This document shows positions 33,278-51,722 of a DNA stretch of 54,180 nucleotides, in pieces. The stretch lies in assembly GCA_003169735.1 (NCBI GenBank), contig PNAP01000081.1:1-54180 (forward strand), in the 5' to 3' direction. The stretch comes from Chloroflexota bacterium (lineage in GTDB: Bacteria > Chloroflexota > Limnocylindria > Limnocylindrales > CSP1-4). The translations under genes and the position numbers were made by a program. The notes under the pieces were generated by a model. That model had not been told where the DNA came from, made no database searches, and worked only from the letters and a program-made list of their open reading frames with translations. Positions within the stretch are counted from its first letter, which is position 1; every line of letters begins with the position of its first letter.

Positions 33278-33640
33278 TCAGCGGTCTCGCGGTCGTCGCT
33301 CCGCGACGCGCTCGCGGACGATCCTGGTCACGAGTTCGTCGGGGATCGGCTTGTCCGGCTTGAAGCCGATGGTGCCCTTGGACAGCCGATAGCCGACGAG
33401 TTCGTCCGCGTGCACGGTCCGCGGCTCGCCGCCCGTGTAGAACGAGCAATCGTCCTTCGTCGCGCCGAAGCCGAGGAGGTAACGGCCGTCGATCCTGAAG
33501 CCGGGGATGCCGTACGCGATGGTCTCGGTGGCGTCCGGCGCCGCCGCCCGGATCTGGGCCCGGAGTCGCTCGAGCGCGGCGCGCTTGTCATCGGGCAGGG
33601 TGGCCAGGTACTCGTCGATCGTCGTCCAGGCCATCGTCAT
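33278..33640 (-). CDS. DUF1801/YdhG-like small protein
   Basis: A 120-aa protein of the DUF1801 (YdhG, frataxin-like fold) family: TIDEYLATLPDDKRAALERLRAQI, TIAYGIPGFRIDGRYLLGFGA and a C-terminal SKGTIGFKPDKPIPDELV. B. subtilis YdhG is proposed to be an iron chaperone; many relatives are uncharacterised. ATG 33640 overlaps the stop of the upstream phosphotransferase gene (ATGA), with GGAGG just before it. Convergent with the nitroreductase gene, 8 bp apart. Confidence 0.85.
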   Translation of the reverse strand: MTMAWTTIDEYLATLPDDKRAALERLRAQIRAAAPDATETIAYGIPGFRIDGRYLLGFGATKDDCSFYTGGEPRTVHADELVGYRLSKGTIGFKPDKPIPDELVTRIVRERVAERRPRDR

Positions 33641-34644
33641 CGGTCCTCCGTGTGTGGTGGTTCCCACGGCCGCTCGCCACGCTCGAGCCGCCGCAGGACC
33701 TCGTGCAGCTCCTCGACGGAACTCTGGAACCAGCCCAAGTATCGGGCCCTCGTCTCCGCCTCGACAGCCGAGTCAAGCATCGGCGCGAGCAGGCCCTCGA
33801 TCTCCTCGAAGTACCAGGTCAGGACATAGTGCCGCAGCGCGTCGATGTCGGGCTCATAGTTCGGTGCGGTGTCGCGGTATCGCTCGAGGAACCGAGTTGC
33901 GCGGTGCGGTTGGACGAGCTGGGTCCACGTGTCGCGCTCCCGCGGCGCCAGCATCAACTCGTCCCAATCGACGAGGTTGAGCCTACCGTCGGGTGCGATC
34001 ATCACGTTGTGGTGGGCGTCGTAGTGGGTGACGACCATCGGCAGTGCGCCGGCCAGGGCGCGTCGGCGCAGTGCGTCGCGCGCCTGACGGGCCTCGGCTT
34101 TGTCGCGCTCCAGCGTCGGTGCGATGAGGTCGAGCGTCTCGCGGGCGGCGAGGATGAGCGGGTCTGGCTCGGGCTGGACCAGGGCGGCCGCCACCACCGG
34201 CTCGGCTCGAGCCACCGCATCGATCTCGAACGTCTCGACCTGGCCGTCGACGTCGACCGCCGTCCCGTGGAGGGCGGCCAGAAGGTCGGCGAAGGGCTCG
34301 ACCGGGAAGTCGAACGAGACGAAGCCCGGGACGACCGCGTAGACCGCCAGGATGTGGTCGCCAAGGGGAAACGTCAGCGCGCCCGATCTGGTCGGGATCG
34401 GTGGACCCATCTGCGAGAAGCCGGCGCGCCAAAGTCGGTGCTGGATGGGAACCGCGCGTTCCAAGAGCCCGGAGTACCGCCCGATCGGCACGGCCTTGAC
34501 GAAGAAAGCGGCCTCGAGCGAGTGCGCGATCCAGGTCTGGGCGACGGTCCCGCGGGCCGCCGGCTCCAAGCTCTGGACCGCCATGCCGTATGTGTCTCGG
34601 AGGATGGATCGGACGTGAGAGGGATCGACGGTCCGCGGTGGCAC
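33637..34644 (-). CDS. Aminoglycoside-phosphotransferase-like kinase
   Basis: A 335-aa APH/choline-kinase family protein. The catalytic loop reads VVTHYDAHHNVMI (in place of HGDLHxxN; Asp and Asn are kept) and the metal-binding Asp is in LNLVDWDELML. The N-lobe is recognisable but divergent (TWIAHSLEAAFFVKAVP). Such proteins phosphorylate antibiotics, sugars, homoserine or other small molecules; the substrate is unknown. The GTG start at 34644 lies 7 nt after a TAGAGT box. It forms an operon with the DUF1801 gene. Confidence 0.82.
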   Translation of the reverse strand: MPPRTVDPSHVRSILRDTYGMAVQSLEPAARGTVAQTWIAHSLEAAFFVKAVPIGRYSGLLERAVPIQHRLWRAGFSQMGPPIPTRSGALTFPLGDHILAVYAVVPGFVSFDFPVEPFADLLAALHGTAVDVDGQVETFEIDAVARAEPVVAAALVQPEPDPLILAARETLDLIAPTLERDKAEARQARDALRRRALAGALPMVVTHYDAHHNVMIAPDGRLNLVDWDELMLAPRERDTWTQLVQPHRATRFLERYRDTAPNYEPDIDALRHYVLTWYFEEIEGLLAPMLDSAVEAETRARYLGWFQSSVEELHEVLRRLERGERPWEPPHTEDR

Positions 34645-37952: not shown

Positions 37953-38825
37953 ATGATCCCACCCCAGTTCGACTACGTGCGGCCGGCGAACCTGGACGAG
38001 GCGCTGGCCATCCTGCGCGACCGGGAGGGCGCCAAGGTGCTGGCGGGTGGCTACAGCCTCCTGCCGCTCCTCAAGCTCCGGCTCGCGAGCCCCGAAGTGC
38101 TGGTCGACATCGGCGCCATCGCCGGCATGGACGGCATCGCCGAGGTGGAGAAGGGCCTCCACATCGGCGGCCGCGCCACGCACCGCAGCATCCACGAGAA
38201 CGCCGCGGTCAAGGCGCGCTATCCGCTTCTCGAGGATGCGGCGGCCGGCATCGGCGACCCGCAGATCCGCAACTGGGGCACGATGGGTGGCTCGGTCGCC
38301 CACGCCGATCCATCGGCCGATTGGCCCGCCGTGCTCATCGCCAGCCGCGCGGCCATCAACGTGCGCAGCGCCGGCGGCGATCGCTGGATCGACGCCCGTG
38401 ACTTCTTCATCGACTCGTTCCAGACGGCCATCGAGCCGAACGAGATCCTGACCGAGATCCGGGTCCCCGCGCCGGGCGCGAACGCCGGCGGCGCCTACGC
38501 GAAACTCGAGCGCCGCGCCGGCGACTTCTCGACGGTCGGTGTCGCGGTCCAGCTCAACCTTGGCGCGGACGGCCAGATATCGGCGGTCGGCATCGGTCTC
38601 ACTGCGGTCGCCCCGACCCCGTTCGCGGCGACCGACGCCGAGGCGATCCTGATGGGCGCCACACCGGACGAGGCGACCTTCCGTCGCGCCGGCGATGCGG
38701 CCGCCGCCCAGAGCTCACCCACGACCGACGCCCACGGCCCGGCCGAGTACAAGAAAGCCATGGTCTCCGAGATGGTCGTCCGCGCGCTGCGGAGCGCCGT
38801 CTCCCGTGCCCGCAAGCAGGCCTGA
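37953..38825 (+). CDS. coxM: Form I CO dehydrogenase, FAD subunit CoxM
   Basis: Medium subunit (290 aa) of the aerobic Mo-Cu CO dehydrogenase; it carries FAD and hands electrons to the respiratory chain. FAD motifs [15 protein letters not shown] and [19 protein letters not shown] are clear. ATG 37953 is preceded by AGGAGGG with 8-nt spacing. It is the first gene in the order M-S-L, which is typical of true form I CO dehydrogenase. The promoter with the inverted repeat lies just upstream. Confidence 0.95.
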
Positions 38826-38836
38826 GAAGGAGCGAC

Positions 38837-39352
38837 ATGACCACCAAGCACATCTCCGTCACGGTCAACGGCGAGGCCCGCGAAGCTGACGTCGAGCCTC
38901 GCCTCCTGCTCGTCCACCTGCTGCGCGACGTCTTCATGCTGACCGGCACGCACATCGGGTGCGACACATCGAACTGCGGGGCGTGCACGATCCACCTCGA
39001 CGGCGAGTCGGCCAAGTCGTGCACGTTGCTGGCAGTCCAGGCCGACGGCAAGTCGGTCACGACCATCGAGGGCATGGCCAGCGGGGCCACGCTCCACCCG
39101 CTCCAGCAGGCGTTCTGGGATCAGCACGGTCTTCAGTGCGGCTTCTGCACGCCGGGCATGATCATGCAGGCCGCGTGGCTGCTCAAGCAGAACGCGGACC
39201 CGACCGAGACCGAGATCCGCGCTGGCATCGCCGGTAACCTCTGCCGCTGCACCGGCTACGTGAACATCGTCAAGTCCATCCAGCAGGCGGCCGGCGAACT
39301 GGCCCCCAGCGAAGACGCGGCAACCGAAGCCGCCGCCACGATCCAGGCATAG
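38837..39352 (+). CDS. coxS: Form I CO dehydrogenase, iron-sulfur subunit CoxS
   Basis: Small subunit (171 aa) with two [2Fe-2S] clusters that link the Mo centre to FAD. The plant-ferredoxin cluster uses Cys42, 47, 50 and 62 ([10 protein letters not shown]). The second uses Cys101, 104, 136 and 138 (CGFCTPG and CRCTGY). A C-terminal Ala/Glu extension follows residue 155. AAGGAG precedes the ATG, 11 bp after coxM. Confidence 0.96.
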
Positions 39353-39362
39353 GAGGCTGACG

Positions 39363-41731
<2,369 letters not shown>

Positions 41732-41735
<4 letters not shown>

Positions 41736-42775
41736 CCGCGCTCAAACCTGGCGCCGTCTACGCGAGGGCGGCGGAGCTGATCGCCGAGGGGCGGCCTTTC
41801 GTGGTCGCCACGGTCGTCGCCGTGCGGCGGCCGACCTCGGCGCGGCCGGGGGCACACGGCATCATCCATCCCGACGGCACCATCGAGGGCTGGGTCGGCG
41901 GCTCGTGCGCCCAGCCCGTCGTGGTGCGCGAGGCACTACGGGCACTCGCCGATGGGCAGCCGCGCCTGCTGCGCATCTCCAAGGATCCACCGTCAGACGC
42001 GCGTCGCGGCGACGGCATCGTCGAACTGGTCATGACCTGCCACTCCGGTGGCACGCTGGAGATCCATGTGGAACCGATGCTTCCGGCCCCGGCCCTCTGG
42101 GTCGTCGGCACGACCCCCATCTGTGGCTCCCTCGTGGAACTGGGCGCAGCGGCGGGCTTCACGGTCACGTTGATCGACCCGGTCGCGGACGCGGAAGCGT
42201 TCCCCACCGCCGACCGGGTGGTCAGCTCCACTGACTTGGCCAGCCTCGACCCCGGAACGGCGCCCTACCTCCTCGTCGCCAGCCAGGGCCAGTGGGACGA
42301 GGAGGCGCTCGAATCGGCCCTTCGTCGCGATCTGTCGTACGTGGGGCTCGTGGCCTCGCCGACGCGCGCGGCGGTCGTCCGCGAGTACCTGCTCGGCGCG
42401 GGCGTGGCACCCGATCGGGTCGCCGCCATCCGTGCCCCCGCCGGCATCGATCTCGGCGCCGAGACGGCCGCGGAGGTCGCCCTCTCCATCCTCGCCGAAC
42501 TCGTTCAGGTCCGCCGCGGCCGCGCCTCGTTCGTGGCCGCGCCCGGTCCTGCGACGCTCGCCGGAGCGGCGGCCGCGCCCGCTAGCCCGCCCCCGCCCGA
42601 AACATCCGAGATCGTGCTGATCGATCCGGTCTGCGGCATGACCGTCGACGCCGATGACGTCCGTCACCTCGCCGAACATGCCGGAGTCGTGTACGCCTTC
42701 TGTTGCCTCGGCTGTCGGACGCGGTTCATGAAGGACCCGACGGCGTTCGTGCCCGCTGCTTCGGCGACGGCCTGA
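41732..42775 (+). CDS. XdhC/CoxI-like maturation protein fused to a YHS domain
   Basis: A fusion of about 347 aa. The N-terminal XdhC domain has VVATVVAVRRPTSARPGAHG and GGSCAQPVV, and the central Rossmann domain (LWVVGTTPICGSLVELGAA to IGLD-like APAGIDLGAETAAEVALSILAEL) follows. The last 50 residues form a YHS metal-binding domain (DPVCGMTVDADD, FCCLGCRTRF). XdhC proteins hold and sulfurate the Mo cofactor; YHS domains occur in copper proteins. No ATG/GTG/TTG lies near the expected N-terminus (TALKPGAVYARAAELIAEG). The best candidate is ATA 41732 overlapping the coxL stop as ATAA, with AAGGGGG about 9 nt upstream. Confidence 0.85.
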
Positions 42776-42776
42776 T

Positions 42777-43220
42777 ATGGAGTTTTCCGGACAGACAACC
42801 ATCAAGGCGCCGCGCGAGCGCGTCTTCGCCTTCCTCATCGATCCGAATCTGGTCGGCCGGTGCGGGCCCGGGGTGGAGTCGATCGAGGTCATCGACGACC
42901 GGCACTTCAAGGCGAAGGCCAAGGTCGGCGTCGGATTCATCTCGGCCCGCTTCGTCATCAACATGGAGCTGGCCGAGGCGGACGCTCCCAGCCATGCCGT
43001 CATCAAGGCACGCGGTCAGGCGCCGGGCACGGCCGTCGACGCGACCGGGACGATGGACCTGGCTCCCGGTGACGAGCCGGATACGACGGTCATGAAGTGG
43101 GGCGCCAACGTCATCATCTCGGGGATGATGGCCTCGGTCGGCGCGCGGATGATCGAAGGCACCGCCAACAAGATGATCGCCCAGACCTTCGACTGTATCC
43201 GGGCCAAGCTGGAGGAATAG
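42777..43220 (+). CDS. coxG: CoxG-family SRPBCC protein
   Basis: A 147-aa START/SRPBCC-fold protein of the CoxG family: [26 protein letters not shown] at the N-terminus, then the [12 protein letters not shown] and [11 protein letters not shown] strands. CoxG of Oligotropha is thought to help anchor CO dehydrogenase at the membrane. The ATG starts one base after the XdhC-YHS stop. A hydrophobic stretch ([15 protein letters not shown]) near the C-terminus could be the membrane-contacting helix. Confidence 0.9.
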
Positions 43221-43222
43221 CG

Positions 43223-43723
43223 ATGGAATCGGTCGCCCTCGTCGTCAACGGAGTCGCCCGGACGGTGGAGGTCGAGCCGAGACGCCTCCTCGTCCAGTTG
43301 ATCCGCGAGGATCTCGGGCTGACCGGCACCCACGTCGGCTGCGACACCAGCCAGTGCGGGGCCTGCACCGTCCACATGGACGGCGTGGCGGTCAAGTCGT
43401 GCACCGTGCTCGCGGTCCAGGCCGACGGTTCGTCGGTCACGACCATCGAGGGCATGGCGCCCGAGGGCGGGCTGCACCCGCTCCAGGCGGCTTTCTGGGA
43501 GAAGCACGGTCTCCAGTGCGGCTTCTGCACGCCGGGCATGATCATGACCGCCGCCGATCTCCTCGCATCCGATACCGACCCCGATGACGACGCCATCCGC
43601 CACGCGCTCGAGGGCAACTTCTGTCGCTGCACCGGCTACCACAACATCGTTGCCGCCATCCGCGAGGCAGCGAACAAGATGCAGGTCGGCGCCGCGACGT
43701 CGGCGGAAGGGGCGCCGCGATGA
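43223..43723 (+). CDS. Form II-type molybdenum hydroxylase, iron-sulfur subunit
   Basis: A 166-aa CoxS homologue with two [2Fe-2S] sites: Cys40, 45, 48 and 60 ([10 protein letters not shown]) and Cys99, 102, 134 and 136 (CGFCTPG, CRCTGY). It begins at ATG 43223, two bases after coxG, and overlaps the next gene by 4 nt. The order S-L-M is that of form II (putative) CO dehydrogenases. It is closely similar to the form I CoxS upstream, suggesting an ancient duplication. Confidence 0.94.
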
Positions 43724-46119
43724 CCATCGACATGCTCGGCGAGCGCGTCAAGCGGACCGAGGATCCCAAGTTCATCACCGGCAAGGGCCGGTACCTCGAC
43801 GACATCCAGATGCCGGGGATGACGCATATCGCCATCCTGCGCAGCCCGTACGCGCACGCGAACATCCGCTCCATCGATACCTCGGCAGCGAAGTCCATGC
43901 CGGGCGTCATCGCCGTCTTCACCGGTGCCGATATCCCCTACAACCCGCTGCCGATGGCCTGGCCGGCCGGCGGCGTGGCCGGTATCCGGAACAACATCAA
44001 CACGCCCCGCACGCTCGCTACCGACAGCGTCAAGTGGAGCGGCGAAGGCGTTGCCGCGGTCGTCGCCGAGACGGCGGAGCAGGCACACGACGCGCTCGAA
44101 GCGATCACCGTCGATTGGGAGCCGCTGCCGACCGTGGTCGACGCCGAGAAGGCGACGCAGCCCGGGGCCGTCCAGCTCCACGAGAACGCACCCAACAACA
44201 TCGTCTTCGAGTGGACCGTCGGCGACAAGGCCGGCACTGACGCGGCCGTCGATGCCGCCGAGGTCGTGGTCCGTCAGCGGATCGTGAACCAGCGCCTCAT
44301 CCCGAACCCGATGGAGGTCCGTGGCGACATCGGCTGGTACAACCCCGGCACGGACGAATACACGGTCTGGATGTCGAGCCAGACACCGCACATCCAGCGG
44401 CTGCTGCTGACCGCGTTCGTGACCGGCATCCCCGAGCACAAGGTGCGCTGCATCAGTCCCGATGTCGGCGGCGCGTTCGGGACCAAGATCTTCTGCTACG
44501 CCGACATGGCGCTGGTGATGTTCGCGTCCAAGGCCATCGGCGGGCGTCCCGTGAAATGGGTCGAGGGGCGCCGCGAGAGTTATCAGAGCACGATCCACGG
44601 TCGCGACCACATCACCTACCTGGAGATCGCCGGCAAGCGCGACGGCACGATCACGGGCTTGCGCGTCAAGACGTTCGCCAATCTCGGCGGCCGCCTCTCG
44701 ACCATCGGTCCAGGCATCCCGACCACCCTCTACGGCCGCGTCCTGTCGGGCTGCTACAAGATCCCCAATGTCTACTGCGAGGTCACGGGGGTCTACACGA
44801 ACACGACCTTCGTGGACGCGTACCGCGGCGCCGGCCGCCCCGAGGCGACCTACGTCATCGAGCGGGCGATGGACCTCTTCGCGGCCGAGATCGGCATGGA
44901 TCGGGCGGAGCTTCGGCGCCGCAACTTCATCGCGCCGGACGCGTTCCCGTACGACAACCCGTCGGGTCTGGGCACGGCCAGCGGAGGTGCCAAGATCTAC
45001 ATCGATTCCGGCAACTACGAGCCGGCCATGGACATGGCACTGGCCGCCGTCGGGTATGCCGATCTCGCAGCCACCAAGGCCGAGGCCGCGTCGCGCGGCA
45101 AGCTTCTCGGTCTCGGGTTCTCGACCTACATCGAGGTCTGCGGCGTCGCGCCATCGAAGTGGATCGGCGCCGTCGGCGAAGGCTGGGGCGCGGCGATGTG
45201 GGAATCGGCCAACATCCGTGTCCATCTCACCGGAAAGACGGTGGTCACGGTCGGCACCCAGCCGCAGGGCCAGGGCCACGAGACGACGTATGCCCAGGTC
45301 ATCTCGCACGAGCTGGGCATCCCCATGGACGACATCGTCATCCAGCACTCCGACACGCTGGGCACGCCGTTCGGCTACGGCTCGTACGGCTCGCGAACCT
45401 CCTCGGTCGGCATGACCGCTGCCATCAAGGCCGCCACCAAGATCCGCGAGAAGGCCCGGAAGTTCGCCGCACACATGCTTGAAGCATCGGTCGACGACAT
45501 CGAGATCGATGGACCGAACTACTTCGTCAAAGGCTCGCCCGACAAGAAGAAGACCATCCAGGAGATCGCCTTCGCGCTCGACCTGGGCTTCGACCCACCG
45601 GAGGGCATGGAGCCCTACCTGGACGAGACCGCCTACTGGGACACGCCCAACTGCACGTGGCCGTTCGGCACGCATGTGGCCATCGTCGAGATCGACAAGG
45701 AGACTGGCCAAGTCGACCTGGTGCGCTATCTGGCGGTCGATGACGTCGGCAAGAAGATCAACCCGATGATCGTCGACGGACAGCTCCACGGCGGCATCGC
45801 CCAGGGAGTCGGCCAGGCGCTCTGGGAGGGCGCCGTCTACAGCGATGACGGCCAGCTGCTGTCGGGCTCGATGCTGGATTACGCGATGCCGAGAGCGTCG
45901 TGGTTCCCGGACATCGAGTTGCACGAGACGGTGACGCCGTCGCCGGTCAACCCGCTCGGGGTCAAGGGCGTCGGCGAGGCCGGCGCCATCGCCAGCACCG
46001 CGGCGGTGTCGAACGCGGTGATGGACGCGCTCGCTCCGCTCGGCATCCGGCATCTCGATATGCCGTACACGCCACAGACCGTCTGGCACGCCATCCAGAC
46101 CGCGGAGGTGTCGCGATGA
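43720..46119 (+). CDS. Form II-type CO dehydrogenase-like catalytic subunit
   Basis: A 799-aa molybdenum hydroxylase large subunit. The active-site loop is AYRGAGR (residues 367-373), the form II motif; the Cu-binding Cys of form I is absent. Other cofactor motifs: [16 protein letters not shown] and [17 protein letters not shown] with the catalytic Glu. Form II enzymes have weak or no shown CO activity and may oxidise other small substrates such as aldehydes or N-heterocycles. It overlaps both neighbours by 4 nt (ATGA). Confidence 0.95.
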
Positions 46120-46979
46120 GCATGGCAGGGTTCGGGTACACCCGGCCGGCGACCTTGGATGAGGCACTGGCCGATCTCGCCAAGCACGGGCCGGATGCGA
46201 AGCTCATCGCCGGCGGCCACAGCCTGCTGCCGTTGATGAAGATGCGGTTGGCGTCGGTCGGCCACCTGGTCGATATCGGGCGCCTCCGCGAGCTCAAGGG
46301 CATCCGCGACTGGAACGGCGGCCTCGCCATCGGGGCGGCGACGACGTACCGAGAGGTGCTTGGATCCGCGCTTGTACGCGACCGATTCCCGCTGCTCATC
46401 GAAGGGCTCGACGACATCGGCGACATCCAGGTCCGCAATCGCGGCACGCTGGGCGGGTCGCTCGCCCACGCCGATCCCGCCTCGGATATGCCCGCCCTCG
46501 CGCTGGCACTCGATGCCGAGCTGTTGCTTCGTTCGAGCGGCGGCGAGCGGACGGTGAAGGTCGATGGCTTCTTCCATGGCGCCTTCGTGAGCGACCTCCA
46601 CCCTGACGAGGTGATGGTCGAGATCCGGATCCCCGCATCGCCCGATGGAGCCGGGACGTCGTACGTGGAACTCACCCAGCCGGCGTCGGGTTACTCCCTG
46701 GTCGGTGTGGCCGTGGTCCTCGCGAAGTCGGGTGGCACGGTCTCGCATGTTCGCGTCGGCGTGACCGGTGTCGCCGATCACGCCTACCGGGCATCCGCGG
46801 TCGAGTCGACGCTGATGGGCTCGGATGGCGGCTCCGCGGCCATCGCGGCAGCAGCGGCGCATGCAGCCGACGGGCAGGAGGTCAATAGCGATATCCACGC
46901 CGACCGGGAATACCGGACGGCGATGGCCACCGCATTCACCCGGCGCAGCGTGGAGTCGGCCGCCGCCCGAGCGACTTGA
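46116..46979 (+). CDS. Form II-type molybdenum hydroxylase, FAD subunit
   Basis: A 287-aa CoxM homologue. FAD-binding motifs IAGGHSLLPLMKMRLA and GTLGGSLAHADPASDMPAL are present, and the C-terminal domain follows from about residue 175. ATG 46116 overlaps the large-subunit stop. It completes an S-L-M enzyme. Its stop overlaps a TTG start of the next gene (TTGA), so a molybdenum-cofactor protein is coupled to it. Confidence 0.94.
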   Translation: MSMAGFGYTRPATLDEALADLAKHGPDAKLIAGGHSLLPLMKMRLASVGHLVDIGRLRELKGIRDWNGGLAIGAATTYREVLGSALVRDRFPLLIEGLDDIGDIQVRNRGTLGGSLAHADPASDMPALALALDAELLLRSSGGERTVKVDGFFHGAFVSDLHPDEVMVEIRIPASPDGAGTSYVELTQPASGYSLVGVAVVLAKSGGTVSHVRVGVTGVADHAYRASAVESTLMGSDGGSAAIAAAAAHAADGQEVNSDIHADREYRTAMATAFTRRSVESAAARAT

Positions 46980-48467: not shown

Positions 48468-49385
48468 ATGACCGCGCCTCTCTCCCCACTCAGCATCGAC
48501 GGGCTGCGCGACGCCTTCGAGCGTCAGCACTACGTGTGCGACCGCGCGCTCGCGACCTCGCTCTACCTGAGCCTGAGTCTCGGCCGGCCGATCCTGCTCG
48601 AGGGAGAGGCGGGCGTCGGCAAGACCGAAGTGGCCAAGGTGCTTGCCGCGGTGCTCGGTGCGCGGCTCATCAGGCTCCAGTGCTACGAGGGGCTCGACGT
48701 CAACACCGCCGTCTATGAGTGGAACTACCCGCGGCAGATGCTCGAGATCCGGCTGCGCGAGGCGCGCGGCGAGGCCGGCACGGCCACGGCCCATGACATC
48801 TTCGGGCCGGAGTTCCTCATCAAGCGGCCGCTCCTTCAGGCGCTCGAGGCGACCGACGGCACGCCGCCGGTGCTGCTCATCGATGAGCTCGACCGAGCGG
48901 ACGAGGAGTTCGAGGCGTACCTGCTCGAGATCCTCAGCGACTTCCAGGTGACCGTTCCCGAGATCGGCACCATCACCGCCGAGCATCCGCCGCGCGTCGT
49001 CCTCACGTCGAACCGGACGCGCGAGATCCACGATGCGCTGAAGCGGCGTTGCCTCTACCACTGGATCGACTACCCGACCGCCGAGAAGGAGTACGCCATC
49101 GTCGTCGCCCGGCTGCCCGGCGTGCCCGATAGACTGGCGCGCCAGGTCGTCGGCTTCGTCCAGCGGCTGCGCGAGGCGGATCTGACCAAGCTCCCCGGTG
49201 TCGCGGAAACGCTCGATTGGGCAGCCGCGCTCGTCTCGCTCGGCGCGACCGAGGTGACCACGGACGTGGTCGACCCGAGCCTGGGCGTGCTCCTCAAGTA
49301 CCAGGAGGACGTCCGCCTGGTGCGCGGCGATCTGGCCGAGCGGTACGTCGCTGAGGTCATGGCGGAGGTCCCGGCGGGCGGCTGA
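48468..49385 (+). CDS. coxD: CoxD, MoxR-type AAA+ ATPase
   Basis: A 305-aa AAA+ ATPase. Walker A is GEAGVGKTE and Walker B is VLLIDELDRADEEFEAYLLE, with sensor LTSNRTREIHDALKRR. In Oligotropha CoxD acts as a chaperone-like ATPase in sulfuration of the Mo centre of CO dehydrogenase. The ATG has no ribosome site; a TACATA box lies 8 nt upstream, so the message may be leaderless. Two bases separate it from coxE. Confidence 0.93.
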   Translation: MTAPLSPLSIDGLRDAFERQHYVCDRALATSLYLSLSLGRPILLEGEAGVGKTEVAKVLAAVLGARLIRLQCYEGLDVNTAVYEWNYPRQMLEIRLREARGEAGTATAHDIFGPEFLIKRPLLQALEATDGTPPVLLIDELDRADEEFEAYLLEILSDFQVTVPEIGTITAEHPPRVVLTSNRTREIHDALKRRCLYHWIDYPTAEKEYAIVVARLPGVPDRLARQVVGFVQRLREADLTKLPGVAETLDWAAALVSLGATEVTTDVVDPSLGVLLKYQEDVRLVRGDLAERYVAEVMAEVPAGG

Positions 49386-49386
49386 C

Positions 49387-50649
49387 ATGGAACAGCCGCA
49401 GCTCGTCGACGGCGATGCGTTCCTGCGGAACGTGCTGGTCTTCGGGCGGGAACTGAAGGCCGAGGGCCTGGCGGCGGACCTCGCGACAGTCCTCGACTAC
49501 GCCCGCGCGCTCGAGCTCGTCGATATCGGCGATCGCGAGGAGGTTCGTGCGGCCGGCGCCGCGCTATTCGTCCGGCGCCATGACGAGCTTGAGCCCTACG
49601 ACGTCGTCTTCGCACGGTTCTGGCGGCGCCAGCGCCAGCGGCGAGCGGCCGGCGGAGCCCAACCGCAGCGTCGCGAACCAGACAACGACGCCCCGACGTC
49701 CGACGGCGTACCTTCAGCCAAGTCTGCCCAACCGTCGGCCACGTTGATGGCGGTCGAAGCGGAAGAGGGCGGAGAACCGGAGGGCGAGACGCCGACGGTC
49801 TCGCCGACCTCGTGGAGCGCCTACGAATCGCTGCGCACCAAGTCCTTCGAGCGGATGACCGCGGCCGAGATGCGCGAAGCCGAGCTGGCAATCGACGCGA
49901 TGAGCCCGACGCTGCCGATGCGGCGCACGCGACGCTGGGATCTCGATCGTCGCGGCACGCTGCTCGCGCCGCGGGCGATGCTGCGGCGCAACCTCTCCAA
50001 CGGCGGCGACCTCGTCGAGTGGGTCTGGCGGCGACCGGTCCGCCGGCCGCGGCACGTGATCATCCTGTGCGACATCAGCGGCTCGATGGAGCGCCACTCT
50101 CGGCTACTGCTCCGATTCGGGCACGCCCTCGCGCGGTCCCGCGTCAAGACCGAGGCGTTCGTCTTCGGGACGCGGCTCACGCGCATCACGCCGCTGCTCA
50201 AGCAGCGCAACCCCGATGACGCGCTTCGCGACGTGGCGGAGGCGGTCGGCGACTGGTCCGGTGGCACGCGCATCGGCGGGGCGTTCCGCGAGTTCAACCT
50301 GCGGTGGGCGCGGCGCGTGCTGCGCAGCAGCGGCATCGTCATCGTGATCTCGGACGGTTGGGATCGCGGCGATCCGGCCGTGGTCGGCGCCGAGACTGCC
50401 AGACTCAAGCGCAATTGTCATCGATTGATCTGGCTCAACCCGCTGGCCGGCACGGCCGACTACCGTCCGTTGGCGGCGGGCATGGCGGCGGCCTACCCGC
50501 ACATCGACCGGTTCCTGCCCGCCCACGACCTGGCCAGCCTCGAGGTATTGGCAGATCTGCTCTCCCGCGAGGCGTTCCTGCCGGTCACGCCCAGCGTTCA
50601 CACTGCCGGCGTCGCGGCGGCGATGGCATCCCAAGGAGCTGCGTCATGA
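49387..50649 (+). CDS. coxE: CoxE, VWA-domain protein for CO dehydrogenase maturation
   Basis: A 420-aa protein with a C-terminal von Willebrand A domain. The MIDAS site reads IILCDISGSMERHSR (DxSxS) with WSGGTRIGGAFREF and VIVISDGWDRGDP downstream. The middle (about residues 80-140) is a low-complexity Arg/Pro/Glu segment. It pairs with the CoxD ATPase, as MoxR-VWA pairs usually do; in Oligotropha CoxE takes part in introducing copper. Its stop overlaps the next gene by 4 nt (ATGA). Confidence 0.92.
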   Translation: MEQPQLVDGDAFLRNVLVFGRELKAEGLAADLATVLDYARALELVDIGDREEVRAAGAALFVRRHDELEPYDVVFARFWRRQRQRRAAGGAQPQRREPDNDAPTSDGVPSAKSAQPSATLMAVEAEEGGEPEGETPTVSPTSWSAYESLRTKSFERMTAAEMREAELAIDAMSPTLPMRRTRRWDLDRRGTLLAPRAMLRRNLSNGGDLVEWVWRRPVRRPRHVIILCDISGSMERHSRLLLRFGHALARSRVKTEAFVFGTRLTRITPLLKQRNPDDALRDVAEAVGDWSGGTRIGGAFREFNLRWARRVLRSSGIVIVISDGWDRGDPAVVGAETARLKRNCHRLIWLNPLAGTADYRPLAAGMAAAYPHIDRFLPAHDLASLEVLADLLSREAFLPVTPSVHTAGVAAAMASQGAAS

Positions 50650-51722
50650 AGGAGTTGCTGCCCGACCTGGATACGTGGCGCGCGGGCGGTGCCGACGCCG
50701 CGCGAGCCGTCGTGGTGCGCATGTTCGGGTCCGCGCCGCGCCCGCCGGGTGCGACGCTGCTCGTGGCCACGGACGGCCGCTTGGCCGGCTCGGTGAGCGG
50801 CGGTTGCGTCGAGGGCGCCGCGTTCGAGGAGGTCGAGGAGGCGCGCCGAACCGGTCGCTCGCGCGTCATCCGGTACGGCATCAGCGACGAGCAGGCGTGG
50901 GACGTCGGGCTGGCGTGTGGAGGCACGATCGATGTGCTGGTCGAACCGATGCTTCGGCCCGAGGTGGAGGCTGCGGCACGATCGCTCGGCCAAGCGGTCA
51001 TCACGCCACTCCCGGCTGATGCGCCGGGGCCGGCCTTCGGGCCGGCCGGCCGAGGGGAGGGAGCCGCGCCGGAGCCGGCACTCGTGGCAGAGGAATCGGG
51101 CGTCTTCCGCGGGACGAGCGGGGATGCGGCAACGGACGCGGAGCTGCAGCGGCTGGCCGGCGACATCCTCCTGCGTGGGACCTCGCGCACCGTCGAAGCC
51201 GGCGGCCGTTCGTGGTTCATCGAGGCGTTCCCGCACCGGCCGCGGCTGGTCATCGTCGGTGCCGTCCAGGTCGCCATCGCCCTCGTCGCGCTCGCCCGGA
51301 CGATGGGCTACGAAACGGTGGTCATCGACGGACGTGCCACGTTCGCCACCCGCGAGCGGTTCCCCGACGCGGACCAGGTCATCGTCGGATGGCCCGATGA
51401 ACTGGCCGATGAGATCGGTCTCGGCCCCTCCGACGCGGTGGCCGTGCTGACCCACGACGTGAAGTTCGATGAGCCGGCCATCGTCGCGGCGCTGGCGCGC
51501 GGGTGCCGCTATGTCGGCGCGGTGGGCAGCCGCAAGACGCAGGCCGACCGCCGCGCTCGCCTGCTCGAAGCTGGCGTCCGTCCGGACGACTTGGCGCGAC
51601 TCCGTGGCCCGATCGGGCTCGACCTCGGCGGCCGCGAGCCGGCCGAGATGGCGCTCGCCATCATGTCCGAGATCGTCGCTGCGCGATACGGCGCCAGTGG
51701 CTCGCCGATGAGCGTGCGCTAG
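50646..51722 (+). CDS. XdhC/CoxF-family molybdenum-cofactor maturation protein
   Basis: A 358-aa protein with the N-terminal XdhC domain ([44 protein letters not shown]) and a C-terminal Rossmann domain ([59 protein letters not shown]). It follows coxD-coxE with a 4-nt overlap, the position of coxF. Unlike the other XdhC protein of the window it keeps the canonical SGGCVEG motif and has no YHS domain. It probably loads sulfurated cofactor, and perhaps copper, into one of the two enzymes. Confidence 0.9.

Follow-up and report, generated by a model that had tools for sequence, protein, structure and literature searches.

A CoxF protein with a C-terminal YHS domain in form I carbon monoxide dehydrogenase clusters: a candidate copper donor

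The gene directly downstream of the form I coxL in the window, the analysed stretch of 54,180 nucleotides of Chloroflexota DNA, belongs to a form I (Mo/Cu) CO dehydrogenase cluster as its coxF, and its product joins an XdhC-type protein to a C-terminal YHS domain. Because the fusion almost always accompanies the copper-using form of the enzyme, its tail is probably a copper supply. In the reading that we favour, and consider reasonably probable, the YHS domain, itself probably ancestral in CoxF and carried on a flexible linker, loads copper, and CoxF delivers it to CO dehydrogenase. A conserved copper-type domain on the chaperone of this enzyme alone brings the copper route to the Mo-S-Cu centre within reach of direct tests in the organisms that have the fusion. 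An XdhC-family copper donor for the Mo/Cu centre is not a new idea, since CoxF of Afipia (Oligotropha) carboxidovorans was already proposed as such in 2014 (PMC4240915). Among the papers searched, which cover few subscription journals and no preprints, none describes the conserved XdhC-YHS form of CoxF, the link of this form to form I or the likely loss of the YHS by the model organism; domain databases may list the architecture. None of these papers contained both 'YHS domain' and 'carbon monoxide', and none paired XdhC with YHS.

The fusion gene of the window belongs to a form I coxMSL cluster that also contains coxD, coxE and coxG. The other genes of the locus are as follows:

37953-38825, forward strand: coxM, FAD subunit (open reading frame; matches coxM of related clusters)
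38837-39352, forward strand: coxS, 2Fe-2S subunit (open reading frame; comparison with related clusters)
39363-41735, forward strand: form I coxL (AYRCSFR), catalytic subunit of Mo/Cu CO dehydrogenase (open reading frame; TIGR02416)
42777-43220, forward strand: coxG, SRPBCC family (open reading frame; comparison with related clusters)
43223-43723, forward strand: second coxS, form II set (open reading frame)
43720-46119, forward strand: form II coxL (AYRGAG) (open reading frame; TIGR02416)
46116-46979, forward strand: second coxM (open reading frame)
48468-49385, forward strand: coxD, MoxR AAA+ ATPase (open reading frame)
49387-50649, forward strand: coxE, VWA protein (open reading frame)
50646-51722, forward strand: second XdhC, no YHS, outside the CoxF clade (domain search; trees)

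The coxL preceding the fusion has the AYxCSFR motif of form I and scores 1203 bits with TIGR02416, above the curated cut-off of 991, whereas the AYRGAG coxL scores 729 bits, below it. The first-pass annotation had placed an XdhC-YHS fusion directly after a form I coxL and had described the second XdhC of the locus as devoid of YHS, and the domain searches bear out both statements. An open reading frame upstream of the cox genes (33637-34644, reverse strand) resembles, by eye, the aminoglycoside phosphotransferase (APH) family.

The fusion protein is composed as follows:

41732-42775, forward strand: CoxF-type XdhC protein with C-terminal YHS, 347 amino acids (open reading frame; Pfam; CoxF clade in trees)
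41780-41977, forward strand: XdhC_CoxI domain, residues 17-82, with Cys59 in GGSCAQP (Pfam PF02625)
42032-42052, forward strand: MTCHSGG motif with Cys103, aligned to the proposed copper motif MCPSHGTM of Afipia CoxF
42095-42502, forward strand: XdhC_C Rossmann domain, residues 122-257 (Pfam PF13478; fold match to 2we7/2we8 and 3on5)
42530-42607, forward strand: linker, residues 267-292, predicted to be disordered (pLDDT <50)
42620-42757, forward strand: YHS domain, residues 297-342 (Pfam PF04945; conservation; pLDDT about 90)

Pfam assigned the XdhC_CoxI and XdhC_C domains with E = 1.2e-20 and E = 1.6e-27, respectively, and the YHS with 2.7e-07 at 30.9 bits, marginally above the gathering score of 30.3. 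The YHS was matched in all 21 fusions of our alignment A2 at E<=0.01, with a best value of 5.9e-15. An AlphaFold2 model of the window protein (21 sequences) reached a mean pLDDT of 86 and matches the XdhC crystal structures 2we7, 2we8 and 3on5. Values near 90 for residues 300-340 and below 50 for the linker predict a confidently folded YHS behind a disordered connection, as would be expected of a tethered domain.

The overlap of the fusion gene with the coxL stop codon, as annotated in the first pass, is real, but the start codon needs correction. The coxF frame begins at an ATA (41732) that overlaps the TAA of coxL (41733-41735), giving ATAA, and no ATG, GTG or TTG is present near the coxL/coxF boundary of the window. 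At the equivalent junction two relatives (L005 and L009) have ATAG in the same frame, and three others (L006-L008) have GTG or ATG starts slightly further on. At the junction in the window (41728-41740), ATA may serve as a rare start codon; the alternative is coupled re-initiation. The genome of the window also has a further small YHS protein, a 95-residue open frame (L003, G000:C31:19590-22736).

The tie of the fusion to form I was assessed in 400 genomes of the phylum, which were searched with both the fusion and form I coxL. Form I coxL was present in 86 of them and a full-length hit running through the YHS in 77 (scoring was limited to the five best candidates of each genome, and a weak second fusion could escape), with 76 genomes having both. 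Form I coxL was thus found in 76 of the 77 fusion genomes, and in 10 of the 323 that gave no full-length hit. The nominal Fisher p for this table (76/10/1/313) is about 1.8e-69, uncorrected for kinship; as the genomes are related, it serves as a description and not as an independent test. In 71 pairs the fusion and coxL share contig and strand, the fusion always downstream of coxL, and 70 of these pairs are separated by no more than 730 bases, the remaining one by 2555. The ten form I genomes that lacked a full-length hit were examined by reading their contigs. Seven of them show a divergent YHS, so they were rejected as cases of form I without the fusion; in the other three the contig ends at coxG or inside coxF. 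The sole fusion without form I coxL (G245) lies at a contig edge, is split into three frames by frameshifts and has lost the FC cysteine of its YHS. The XdhC proteins of form II clusters have no YHS. The first-pass annotation had expected the fusion to occur with the coxL of form I, not of form II, and not to be common in genomes without form I; both expectations clearly hold in this sample, in which the 77th copy is the broken one.

Outside Chloroflexota, a scan of genome contigs found the fusion in nine more phyla of bacteria and in two groups of archaea, so the idea that it is peculiar to the window genome or a chance join was rejected. The bacterial fusions come from Chloroflexota, Rokubacteria, Acidobacteriota, Bacteroidota, Actinomycetota, Deinococcota, Eremiobacterota, Armatimonadota, Bacillota and Gammaproteobacteria, and the archaeal ones from Halobacteria and Thermoplasmata. 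In many of these clusters the fusion occupies the coxF slot, and outside Chloroflexota the gene order is coxMSL-F or coxMSL-(G)-D-E-F. A form I coxL adjoins the fusion, or occupies the cut contig end, in all but two cases. One is a short Thermoplasmata contig (L046) whose genome has a form I coxL at the end of another contig. In the other (L037:9986-11173) two tandem YHS domains follow an XdhC away from the cox genes, and form I coxL is located elsewhere in the genome. Orphan fusions were therefore rejected as an argument against the form I tie, the L037 genome holding form I coxL and the G245 copy being broken. The L044 contig opens within a coxL-like frame that immediately precedes the fusion, and no coxL hit was obtained in that draft genome at the threshold used.

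Five of the 398 genomes sampled from Actinomycetota have form I, and the fusion is present in all five. Among 16 form I regions read in a Pseudomonadota sample, the fusion occurs in one (G732) and a CoxF without YHS in 14. The form I cluster of G776 (L127, G776:C29:11500-31400) has coxD and coxE and no CoxF nearby, and elsewhere in that genome only weak XdhC and YHS matches were found. The fusion is also present in Saccharospirillum (the centre genome of the Pseudomonadota sample), in another gammaproteobacterium, in Paraburkholderia and in Caballeronia. Matches covering 80% or more of the fusion were found on six plasmids, each of which has a form I coxL. Form I together with a YHS-less CoxF was found on plasmids of Afipia, Bradyrhizobium and Rhizobium, and likewise in Nonomuraea.

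A 2010 review noted that CoxF clusters with the XdhC homologues of other CO dehydrogenase operons (PMC2997495). In our trees, the fusion falls together with A. carboxidovorans CoxF and separately from XdhC proteins of the CoxI type. The CoxF clade comprises 79 rows (bootstrap 95, SH-aLRT 86), 65 of them with a YHS. The 14 YHS-less rows, A. carboxidovorans and 13 others, form one proteobacterial clade (100/96), nested among YHS-bearing proteobacteria (group support 96/89). The distribution of the YHS needs a minimum of two changes, which is forced by well-supported branches; one change does not suffice in 96% of bootstrap trees. With ordinary XdhC proteins as the outgroup, the YHS was most likely gained once at the base of CoxF and lost once in the proteobacterial clade. 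An additional loss would account for Nonomuraea, which the tree does not include. The fusion could also track form I through common descent instead of copper.

The A. carboxidovorans CoxF, encoded on pHCG3 in coxMSLDEFGHIK, shares with the window protein both XdhC domains, the form I cluster, the clade and about 40% identity (over residues 48-262 of the window protein). It differs in having 280 amino acids and no YHS, as well as in the motifs MCPSHGTM and RHGQRQS, with which the window protein has no more in common than the Cys and a few residues beside it. Mutants of A. carboxidovorans in coxE and coxF make CO dehydrogenase without Cu (PMC4240915). The YHS is not strictly essential, as it is absent in A. 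carboxidovorans, whose enzyme is active, and also in Nonomuraea. MHYT copper proteins were considered as a substitute for the YHS and rejected: within our set they match only in proteobacterial clusters, in most of these with or without YHS, and thus track the phylum. CoxC, in turn, is a CO-responsive regulator (PMC11347149).

The 2014 model of copper acquisition was built on the MCPSHGTM copper motif and the phytase motif RHGQRQS of Afipia CoxF (PMC4240915). The window protein has the CxSxG motif with the Cys of the proposed copper site. Every one of the 79 CoxF proteins, YHS-bearing or not, has Cys103, and Cys59 is equally kept (65/65 with YHS, 14/14 without). The equivalent of Cys103 also stands in most ordinary XdhC proteins compared, so this cysteine is not copper-specific. 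The proteins XdhC, PaoD and CoxI have the same two domains as the window protein and, in most members, both conserved cysteines, but they lack the YHS, have CGG in place of CxSxG, serve copper-free enzymes and fall outside the CoxF clade. The phytase motif RHGxRxP is absent from the window protein and occurs only in Afipia among the 79 CoxF proteins, hence it does not define the family. With the XdhC cysteine widely shared and the phytase motif unconserved, the YHS with its three Cys and Met would be the sole CoxF-specific metal site. Its candidate ligands in the window protein are D298, C301, M303, C324 and C328, and among the 65 YHS-bearing CoxF proteins these residues are kept in 62, 64, 64, 64 and 65, respectively.

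Small YHS proteins and P-type ATPases make up the YHS relatives retrieved by the same contig scan, and each of the 38 ATPases has CPCALG, CPCAMG or CPHALG, which are motifs of copper-type ATPases. Their YHS domains and those of the small proteins share the signature DPVCGM...YFCxxGC with CoxF, but they sit on membrane transporters or are free-standing and are not part of Mo-cofactor chaperones. From these relatives, from a cyclase described next and from the coxF mutant phenotype of A. carboxidovorans, whose CoxF has no YHS, we infer that the YHS of CoxF binds Cu(I) and donates it. The YHS of a Mycobacterium phlei adenylyl cyclase confers a copper-specific response, and the same paper states that copper binding is unproven for the YHS domains of Cu-ATPases (PMC4626032). 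As in CoxF, the cyclase YHS is placed at the C-terminus of a larger protein, there a catalytic one; unlike in CoxF, it is regulatory and no metallochaperone. A sequence search of solved structures found no metal-bound or sequence-close YHS of the CoxF kind.

Other roles for the domain were also considered. The YHS could be a copper sensor or gate, so that copper-bound CoxF acts on the sulfurated apo-enzyme while the metal arrives otherwise. We consider this unlikely, although the only functionally tested YHS is the copper switch of the cyclase (PMC4626032) and copper is still inserted without YHS, as in Afipia (PMC4240915): our own query set recognised no other copper-donor gene beside the fusion genes, and a chaperone that acts on the enzyme itself is a natural donor. 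Similarly improbable in our view is that the YHS, with Zn bound or with no metal at all, acts as a structural or docking module that aids CoxF in binding CoxE, CoxL or the membrane and plays no part with copper. YHS and TRASH domains are treble-clef-like folds, the toluene-4-hydroxylase crystal contains a YHS without metal (stated in PMC4626032), and CoxF of Deinococcus sp. AJ005 (L116:7896-8957) retains a YHS-like end in which the first Cys and the Met are missing, its form I coxL being intact. The near-invariance of the three Cys and the Met over distant phyla, and the presence of the closest YHS relatives found in Cu-ATPases, speak against such a module. Finally, the XdhC part alone might carry the copper through Cys103 of the MCPSHGTM-type motif, as in the 2014 model, and the YHS would then be an accessory store or a relic. 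The invariance of Cys103 irrespective of the YHS and the lack of the domain in the model organism agree with this proposal; nevertheless, we regard it as quite improbable, given that the same Cys recurs in most ordinary XdhC proteins compared, which serve copper-free enzymes, and that the phytase motif of that model is confined to Afipia.

If, as we favour, the YHS loads copper for delivery by CoxF, the chaperone would act on apo-CO dehydrogenase after the CoxD-dependent sulfuration of the Mo site. Three Cys and a Met of the YHS, perhaps joined by an Asp, would capture copper from the pool in the cytoplasm, and the XdhC part would dock onto CO dehydrogenase above the Mo cofactor. The tethered YHS would then pass Cu(I) to the sulfurated Mo site next to the Cys of AYxCSFR, perhaps via the conserved Cys59/Cys103. 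More tentatively, all form I enzymes may share CoxF-YHS as the ancestral Cu(I) donor dedicated to their Mo-S-Cu centre. We would likewise suggest with some reserve that the published scheme of phytate, phytase motif and XdhC cysteine derives from an exceptional case, as the lineage of the only species in which maturation was studied would have lost the YHS. Heterologous systems now use the A. carboxidovorans genes, and we suggest adding a YHS-bearing CoxF to them.

Several variants of this architecture and its surroundings were encountered. The CoxL of a Caballeronia cluster with CoxF-YHS (L182:2680-5124) has AYRCSFM in place of AYRCSFR. In the cox cluster of a relative, a stand-alone YHS gene of 50 residues, which shares 57% identity with the YHS end of the protein from the window, lies between a second XdhC and coxG (L055:2278-2432); form I coxL was not found in that draft genome. 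On the Thermoplasmata contig, a MocA-like nucleotidyltransferase is apparently fused ahead of the XdhC-YHS in a 618-residue frame (L046:2143-3996), possibly a triple fusion for cofactor plus copper. The XdhC-YHS linkers of a gammaproteobacterium (L045:9977-11017) and of Natronorubrum (L117:7878-9017) contain the di-cysteine motifs SCCG / SCCA, which are possible extra metal sites.
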